From Deltaproteobacteria bacterium (lineage in GTDB: Bacteria > Myxococcota > JACRCW01): a stretch of DNA of 64,000 nt. The position numbers and the translations under genes are program-made. The notes beneath the pieces are model-generated. The model worked only from the letters and a program-made list of their open reading frames with translations. It did not search any database and was not told the DNA's origin. The DNA lies in the NCBI GenBank assembly GCA_016218805.1, contig JACRCW010000161.1, positions 1-64,000 on the forward strand, read 5' to 3'. Below, piece by piece: positions 26,096 to 27,595 of the stretch; position 1 is the first letter of the stretch, and the number at the start of each line of letters is the position of its first letter.

Positions 26096-27595
26096 TTAGC
26101 GCCCCTTCCAGTGGCGGATGGCTTCGCGGTCCGGCCCGAACCGGAACTGCGGCGTCAGCTCCCGCGTGTGGCAGTTGCGGCACAGCCGCTCACCCGCACC
26201 GCGCTCAATGTTGTCCCGCCCGCCCTGCTCAGCCACGTGGTTGCGGCCGGGACCGTGGCAGGCTTCGCACTGCACTTCAGCAAAGCCGCCCATGCGCGCC
26301 GGGTCCCGGAAGCCCCCCGCCGTGCCAAACGCTGTGGAGTGGCAGCCCACGCATTCGCGGTCCATGTCCTGCGCGGTCTTGCGCAGGCTGGCCATGGCGC
26401 GGCTGTGGCGCGTGTTGAGCCACGAAGTGAACTCCTGCTCATGGCAGGACGTGCACGCGCGGCTGCCGGCAAACGGGCTGCCCGGCGGCGGCTCCCCCTG
26501 CGGGGTCATCTGGTCCAGCAGCTGGCTTTCGCGCTCCGCGTTGCGGCGCTGGTAGGCCGCCACTTCCGCCGCCACCACGGGGTCCTCCGGCAGGGAGAGC
26601 TCCATGGCCACCGGTTCAAAGTCCAGGCGGGACCGCGCCTGGTCCGCCGTGATCTGCGCTTCCAGCGCCTGGAGCTCCGCACGCAGGCGCGCGTCCTCGC
26701 CGGACTGCAGCTTCCGGCGCAGGTTCTCCGCCCCCACGCGCGTGCGCTGGTAGTCCTCACCGCCCAGCAGGGTCCGCTCTCCCGCGCGCACGTGCACCGT
26801 GGCCCGCGCCAGGTACTTGCCGCCCTTGCCACCGCTGAGCACCACGCTGGCCGCCGGCTCCCCGTTCAGCACCACCCGCCGGGGCGCAAACATCAGGTGC
26901 CCGCCGTGGCCCGTGACAACCAGCGAGAACCCACCCGCTTCAGCGGCCCACGCCGCGGCGGTGTCCACCGTGGTGTGGGCCAGCAGGATGGCCAGGTCAT
27001 GCGCCTGCGCGCGCGCCAGCGCCTCCCGCAGCGCCGGCACCGCCGGCGTGGCGTTCAATGACAGGCCCGCGGGCCACAGCGCCGGGTCGGTGGCCCCCAC
27101 AAGCAGCACGCGCAGCCCCGCAACCTCCCGCACCGCGTGCGGCGGAAAAGCGGGCTTGCCCTCCTTGTCCACCAGGTTGGCCGCAATGGCCGGCAGCGCG
27201 TTGCGCGCCACCACGTCACGCATCCAGCGCGCGTTGTCGCCCGCGTCCAGGTCACCCGGCACAAACGCGTCCAGGAACCGCCCGTAGGACCGCGCCACCA
27301 CCTCCGCCTTGTCGCCGTACTGCTGGCGCACCGGCGCGGGGATGGGCAGCCCCTTGAGAAACGCGTCTCCCACGTCCAGGGCCAGCGTGGGGCCCCGGCG
27401 CCGTTCGTCCTCCACCAACCTTGCGTGCCTGGCCAGACCGCCAAGCGGGCGCTTGGGTCAACCGCAGGGGGCCAGCTCACCGTCCCGGCTGCTGGACAGG
27501 ATGATGCTGAACACCTTCAGGTCATTGACCGGTGCGCCCGCTGACGTTGCCGAAACCACCAGGGCCAGTGCAGCGAGCCGTGACGCGTTGTTCAT
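26096..27595 (-). CDS. UshA-like multihaem cytochrome with in-frame UGA (candidate selenoprotein)
   Basis: 499 residues if the TGA at 27458-27460 is read as selenocysteine (residue 46); otherwise it is a 45-residue stub plus a separate 440-residue frame with no good start. The frame is continuous from ATG 27595 to 26096. A signal peptide (residues 1-20) leads to RDGELAPCG-UGA-PKRPLGGLAR, where related proteins, as I remember them, have Cys. The N-terminal domain (to about 270) resembles a UshA/5'-nucleotidase metallophosphatase (LALDVGDAFL, ILLAHTT, VVTGHGGH). The C-terminal part carries four CxxCH haem sites (381-385, 415-419, 443-447, 472-476) and HSRAMASL, like cytochrome c554-type proteins. 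No Shine-Dalgarno is visible. It would be a periplasmic multihaem redox protein. Confidence 0.75.
27428..27445 (-). promoter_or_regulatory. candidate bacterial SECIS hairpin
   Basis: Read on the minus strand, CTTGGC-GGTCTG-GCCAGG forms a 6-bp stem (one G-U pair) with apical loop GGUCUG. The loop begins 18 nt after the UGA (27460-27458), the spacing and loop start (GGUCU) I recall for the E. coli fdhF SECIS. The same bases encode LGGLAR, a conserved protein motif, so part of the match may be coding-driven. A competing hairpin, CCAAGC-GCCC-GCTTGG (27456-27441), overlaps it. Confidence 0.5.

Follow-up and report, generated by a model that had tools for sequence, protein, structure and literature searches.

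The window analysed here, a stretch of 64,000 nucleotides from a Myxococcota genome (Deltaproteobacteria bacterium), encodes on its minus strand a predicted selenoprotein in which an UshA-like domain is followed by four putative c-type haem sites (Table 1). Judging from its sequence, this gene appears to belong, as a real and well-supported although divergent member, to a selenoprotein family that is already known, and the UGA at its codon 46 is very probably decoded as selenocysteine (Sec). The frame that extends from ATG 27595 to TAA 26096 (minus strand, 500 codons in total) is interrupted by a single stop, the TGA at 27460-27458 (codon 46), and is open throughout the rest of its length; translation across the TGA yields PCG-U-PKRPLGGLAR. 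An earlier note on this DNA had described this frame and its reading, with a signal peptide encoded upstream of the TGA and the rest of the UshA-like domain and four CxxCH sites downstream; the read-through translation likewise has a signal-peptide-like N-terminus, an UshA-like domain and four CxxCH. Third-position G+C is elevated before the TGA (0.78) as well as after it (0.88-0.92) and is not elevated 5' of the ATG (0.68). With the single TGA as the sole lesion, the possibilities of a frameshift and of a pseudogene were rejected. Reassignment of TGA was rejected as well because TGA terminates 6 of the 7 neighbouring ORFs checked and thus serves as a normal stop codon in this genome. A gene caller reading every TGA as a terminator would place the start at TTG 27418 (26096-27418, minus strand), with the loss of the signal peptide and of the CxU motif and active site.

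Table 1. Features of the predicted selenoprotein gene in the window
Feature	Coordinates	Strand	Basis and remarks
Predicted UshA-like selenoprotein coding sequence	26096..27595	minus	499 aa, Sec at residue 46, TAA stop; read-through translation
Probable signal peptide (MNNASRLAALALVVSATSAG)	27536..27595	minus	sequence only; model shows helix 4-15
UshA/5'-nucleotidase-like N-terminal domain, most metal ligands replaced	26501..27523	minus	model, Foldseek, profile alignment
UGA codon for probable Sec46	27458..27460	minus	CxU with Cys44 (codon 27466-27464); Cys in Cys homologues
SECIS-type hairpin of bacterial kind (7 bp; GGUCUG loop, 27439-27434)	27427..27446	minus	fold and covariation
Haem c site 1, CTSCH, residue 381	26441..26455	minus	CxxCH motif; Pfam Cytochrome_C554
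Haem c site 2, CVGCH, residue 415	26339..26353	minus	CxxCH motif
Haem c site 3, CEACH, residue 443	26255..26269	minus	CxxCH motif
Haem c site 4, CRNCH, residue 472	26168..26182	minus	CxxCH motif

The protein matches the NCBIfam family NF041198, 'UshA-like (seleno)protein' (UshA_like_PCGU), with E=2.9e-66 and 224.1 bits; the earlier note had named this family correctly. The score does not reach the curated cut-off of 275 bits, so that the protein is best viewed as a divergent member. Two TGA-bearing relatives likewise fall short (L126, 257.8 bits; L166, 248.6 bits), and three others (L124, L129 and L146) pass. The signature PCG-[U/C] followed by GGLAR is present in the UshA-like N-terminal domain at residues 43-56, and the aligned columns P43, C44, G45, (C/U)46, P50, G52, G53 and A55 are invariant, with the CxC/CxU pair conserved without exception across alignments of 14 and 42 sequences. 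The C-terminal CxxCH region is also covered, residues 294-486 matching profile positions 320-518. The family was listed in 2008 in the GOS (ocean) selenoproteome as 'COG0737, UshA-like, CxU' (PMC2398784), and NF041198 with its CxU motif is listed in a 2026 review (PMC13188914). The family is widespread, among myxobacteria as well as in further phyla. Over 20 relatives with the TGA (80 read among at least 118) also have four CxxCH motifs, and this, together with the listing since 2008, means that the combination of Sec with four haems is not new; as predicted from these sequences, it is common in the family.

The N-terminus suggests that the protein is probably exported to the periplasm, and the four CxxCH motifs in a protein with predicted export are the features of a multihaem c-type cytochrome. 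In particular, the Pfam domain Cytochrome_C554 is found at residues 380-448 with E=9.9e-15, above the gathering score. In the AlphaFold model, the N-terminal domain is predicted with a mean pLDDT mostly above 90 and the haem tail is poorly modelled; Foldseek matches of the model include CD73 and the E. coli 5'-nucleotidase, with E-values down to 1.9e-18. Profile alignment to 5'-nucleotidases shows that the first DxH is changed to SxD and GNH to GDL in the window protein, whereas D77, H207 and H230 are retained near the ligand motifs. Of the dinuclear metal ligands generally assigned to UshA-type enzymes (DxH, GD, GNHE, H, GHxQ/H), only the Asp of GD and some His residues are kept. In nearly all family members of the alignment, the first DxH and the GNHE motif have given way to other residues. 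Cys44-x-Sec46 comes immediately after the strand-loop element on which UshA carries its first two ligands.

In the preferred scenario, UGA46 would be read as Sec through tRNA-Sec and through SelB docked on the hairpin that follows the codon, and the product would be an exported protein carrying four c-type haems. Its N-terminal domain, of the 5'-nucleotidase/SoxB metallophosphatase fold with most of the dinuclear-metal ligands replaced, could then use Cys44-x-Sec46, placed where the active site used to be, as a redox centre of the selenenyl-sulfide type. The haems of the C-terminal part might exchange electrons with this pair and in this way link it to quinol-linked multihaem cytochromes. The redox mechanism is a hypothesis that we consider, on balance, somewhat favoured because the CxC/CxU pair is invariant, the metal ligands are replaced, haem tails are present and cytochrome genes adjoin. 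Specifically, genes for NapC/NirT-type multihaem or cytochrome b561-linked cytochromes are adjacent to the Sec-tetrahaem gene in six loci (L124, L126, L127, L136, L180 and L200); within the window, no cytochrome partner is encoded next to the gene. Many Sec members lack any haem tail, so that the haem wiring cannot be the universal mode of the family. Alternatively, the CxU (CxC) pair might bind metal or take part in metal-dependent hydrolysis, such that the protein would still be a phosphoesterase with Sec as a ligand. The fold, which is clearly that of 5'-nucleotidases, and the three residues retained near the ligand motifs are compatible with this possibility. Nevertheless, we regard it as unlikely given the near-universal replacement of the first DxH and GNHE and the fact that many members are fused to haem domains or encoded beside multihaem cytochromes, which points to redox work.

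The assignment of Sec46 draws on the comparison with homologues, which carry either Cys or TGA at this position. The expectation in the earlier note that the TGA would occupy a Cys column proved correct: Cys homologues have PCG-C, and the TGA-bearing sequences align there. A search across 195 genomes of the phylum produced many matches with exactly one internal TGA; among the phylum loci read, the haem-bearing forms mostly have PCG-C (TGC/TGT) and the haem-less forms PCG-U. A DNA pattern scan for the TGA form in 84,980 species genomes yielded at least 118 stretches, of which 80 were read. All 80 are open through the TGA, and they come from Myxococcota, Neomarinimicrobiota, Acidobacteriota, Deferrisomatales and others. 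Two of the records, L140 (Comamonas sp. KCTC 72670) and L171 (a Thermoplasmata archaeon MAG), have genes nested among myxobacterial or deltaproteobacterial ones and are likely to reflect contamination or misbinning. In a quick tree of 95 N-terminal domains, which includes several long branches, the closest partner of the window protein is encoded by a gene with TGA in G001, the only other genome of the same class in the comparison set (SH-aLRT 95). On this tree, the Cys members require two state changes, and the haem tail about nine gains or losses. An intact Cys tetrahaem paralogue (PCGC) is encoded on another contig of the same genome (C59:20612-22117, minus strand) and groups with the Cys members, indicating that the Sec and Cys forms coexist in one genome.

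The UGA is followed directly 3' by a conserved hairpin, which, together with its location at the Cys position of homologues, is the arrangement seen in bacterial selenoproteins. Positions +12 to +18 after the UGA pair with +25 to +31, with one G.U pair, and the GGUCUG loop starts 18 nt after the UGA (from +19). The earlier note had placed the loop correctly and had given the stem as 6 bp; the fold extends it to 7 bp. Its comparison with the fdhF SECIS, which has a GGUCU loop at the same distance from the UGA, gains support from the fold and from covariation among homologues. The loop partly encodes the conserved Gly-Gly-Leu, and for this reason Cys homologues and synonymous recoding were employed as controls. 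When the window gene was recoded synonymously with its own codons, a stem of this length appeared in 5.2% of the draws, a GGUCU loop in 19.7%, and both in 1.0%; taken alone, this hairpin is only mildly unusual (p ~0.05 to 0.10). The longer folds around the UGA (49 and 76 nt) are unremarkable (z -0.21 and +1.60), and the Rfam scan of the hairpin gave no match at E<=1.

Once homologues are compared, the hairpin signal appears to be far more than chance would produce. The mean z of the hairpin energy under synonymous recoding is -1.62 in 88 Sec genes vs -0.10 in 18 Cys genes. The loop Gly (the second Gly) is encoded by GGU in 70 of 80 Sec genes and in 2 of 18 Cys homologues (Fisher p 7e-10), against a background of 18% of the Gly codons elsewhere in the Sec genes. 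The scan pattern was TGA-specific and selected GG.GG.[CT]T.GC, so that the invariance of these letters is partly forced; this constraint does not extend to the third codon positions or to the stem letters on either side. Across 68 Sec sequences aligned without gaps, 87.4% of the stem cells are paired, and pairing falls to 43% when the partner is slid by one column. The number of compensatory cells in the same alignment is 56, compared with a shuffled mean of 19.9 and with none of 500 shuffles as high, although these counts include related sequences rather than independent events and are inflated by kinship. The pattern is common to phyla from the AT-rich Neomarinimicrobiota to the GC-rich Myxococcota. 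In G001, the TGA and an identical stem (with the loop GGACUG) are kept despite protein branches of about 1.5 changes per site.

These comparisons bear on the possibility that the TGA is a true stop, either in a decayed gene copy or through a sequencing or assembly error for TGC. Such a reading would be in line with the failure to find SelA and SelB in the assembly (see below), with the reliance on a single assembly without reads, and with the intact Cys paralogue in the same genome. However, the 500 codons contain no lesion apart from the TGA, which falls on the Cys/Sec column, is common to G001 and the 80 other loci read among the at least 118, and precedes a conserved hairpin missing from the Cys copies. 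We therefore consider a true stop or an error highly improbable and retain the decoding of UGA46 as Sec.

The Sec machinery is represented in the genome by two components. A tRNA-Sec gene scores 72.7 bits and is also identified by ARAGORN (tRNA-SeC, tca), and SelD is encoded at C28:1894-2829 (minus strand; 299 bits). The selD gene itself contains an in-frame TGA at the catalytic position (LTACASSGG-U-AAKVGPGG), which suggests that SelD is probably a selenoprotein too; SelD of most relatives likewise contains one TGA. The machinery search proposed in the earlier note thus succeeded for selC and selD and failed for selA and selB: in the window's own draft assembly (92% complete, 170 contigs), there is no match to SelA and none to SelB above the cut-off, also with the SelB of a relative as the query. 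The best matches to the SelB model in this genome are other translation GTPases such as IF-2. Among 18 other genomes tested, SelA and SelD are encoded in every one that carries a TGA form, and SelB exceeds the cut-off in each of these except G008; the two genomes with only Cys forms among the matches listed (G012 and G014) have neither SelA nor SelD, and none of their SelB matches reaches the cut-off. In one relative (G157:C147:88223-89684), selA is split between two frames, by a frameshift or an assembly error. Formate dehydrogenase was considered as a further selenoprotein of the window's genome and rejected, the best match (420 bits) being below the cut-off and free of TGA.

The most likely cause of the missing SelA and SelB is an assembly gap, given that the completeness of the draft is 92% and that EF-Tu, too, is present only as stubs at the ends of contigs C66 and C68. 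The selA and selB genes are adjacent in G171, G192 and G193, and a single gap could therefore remove both. They are far apart in others such as G060, including several complete relatives, and in such an arrangement chance gaps would have to occur twice. This fact, along with the absence of selA and selB in the presence of tRNA-Sec and SelD, could be taken to mean that the lineage lost SelA and SelB, that the UGA is read by another route or inefficiently, and that tRNA-Sec and SelD are remnants. We deem such a loss, if anything, still less probable than a true stop, in view of the incompleteness of the assembly, the sufficiency of one gap where the genes are adjacent, the good score of the tRNA-Sec, and the retention of both the SelD TGA and the hairpin of the UshA-like gene. 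Least credible is the compound proposal that a dead nucleotidase site was rebuilt as a haem-wired Cys-x-Sec centre and that SelA and SelB were replaced by an unrecognised Sec route.

With Sec decoding and an assembly gap as the preferred reading, the window gene adds a deep-branching, class-level member to the UshA-like selenoprotein family. The comparison provides several leads, namely the covarying SECIS at a fixed distance, the largely lost metal site beside the CxU, the repeated gain or loss of the haem tail, and the quinol-linked cytochromes encoded next to the gene in several genomes. With NF041198, the window protein shares an order of domains that spans the entire profile, from the UshA-like domain at the N-terminus to the haem region at the C-terminus, as well as PCG-U and the SECIS-type hairpin directly after the UGA, at about 20-35% identity to the other aligned members. 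In Myxococcaceae, Archangiaceae and Neomarinimicrobiota, haem-less UshA-like Sec proteins (e.g., L132 and L163) have the same Sec motif and hairpin and a similar N-terminal domain but lack the four CxxCH. Conversely, Cys tetrahaem homologues such as the paralogue in the same genome (L019) have the architecture of the window protein with PCG-C at the same site, and differ in the TGC/TGT in place of TGA, in the lack of the hairpin excess and in their separate tree branch. The UshA-like (seleno)protein family 2 (NF049981) has a related UshA-like fold but a CxxU motif, and the NCBIfam profile search did not report the window protein for it at E<=0.001. The ExtKL multihaem c-type cytochrome (seleno)protein family (NF040886) likewise consists of haem-bearing selenoproteins; the match to it is weak (E=9.9e-5) and is confined to the haem part, with the UshA-like domain outside. 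Finally, the UshA/CD73 5'-nucleotidases and SoxB have the same fold as the N-terminal domain of the window protein, which differs from them in the mostly replaced metal ligands, the CxU motif and the haem tail.
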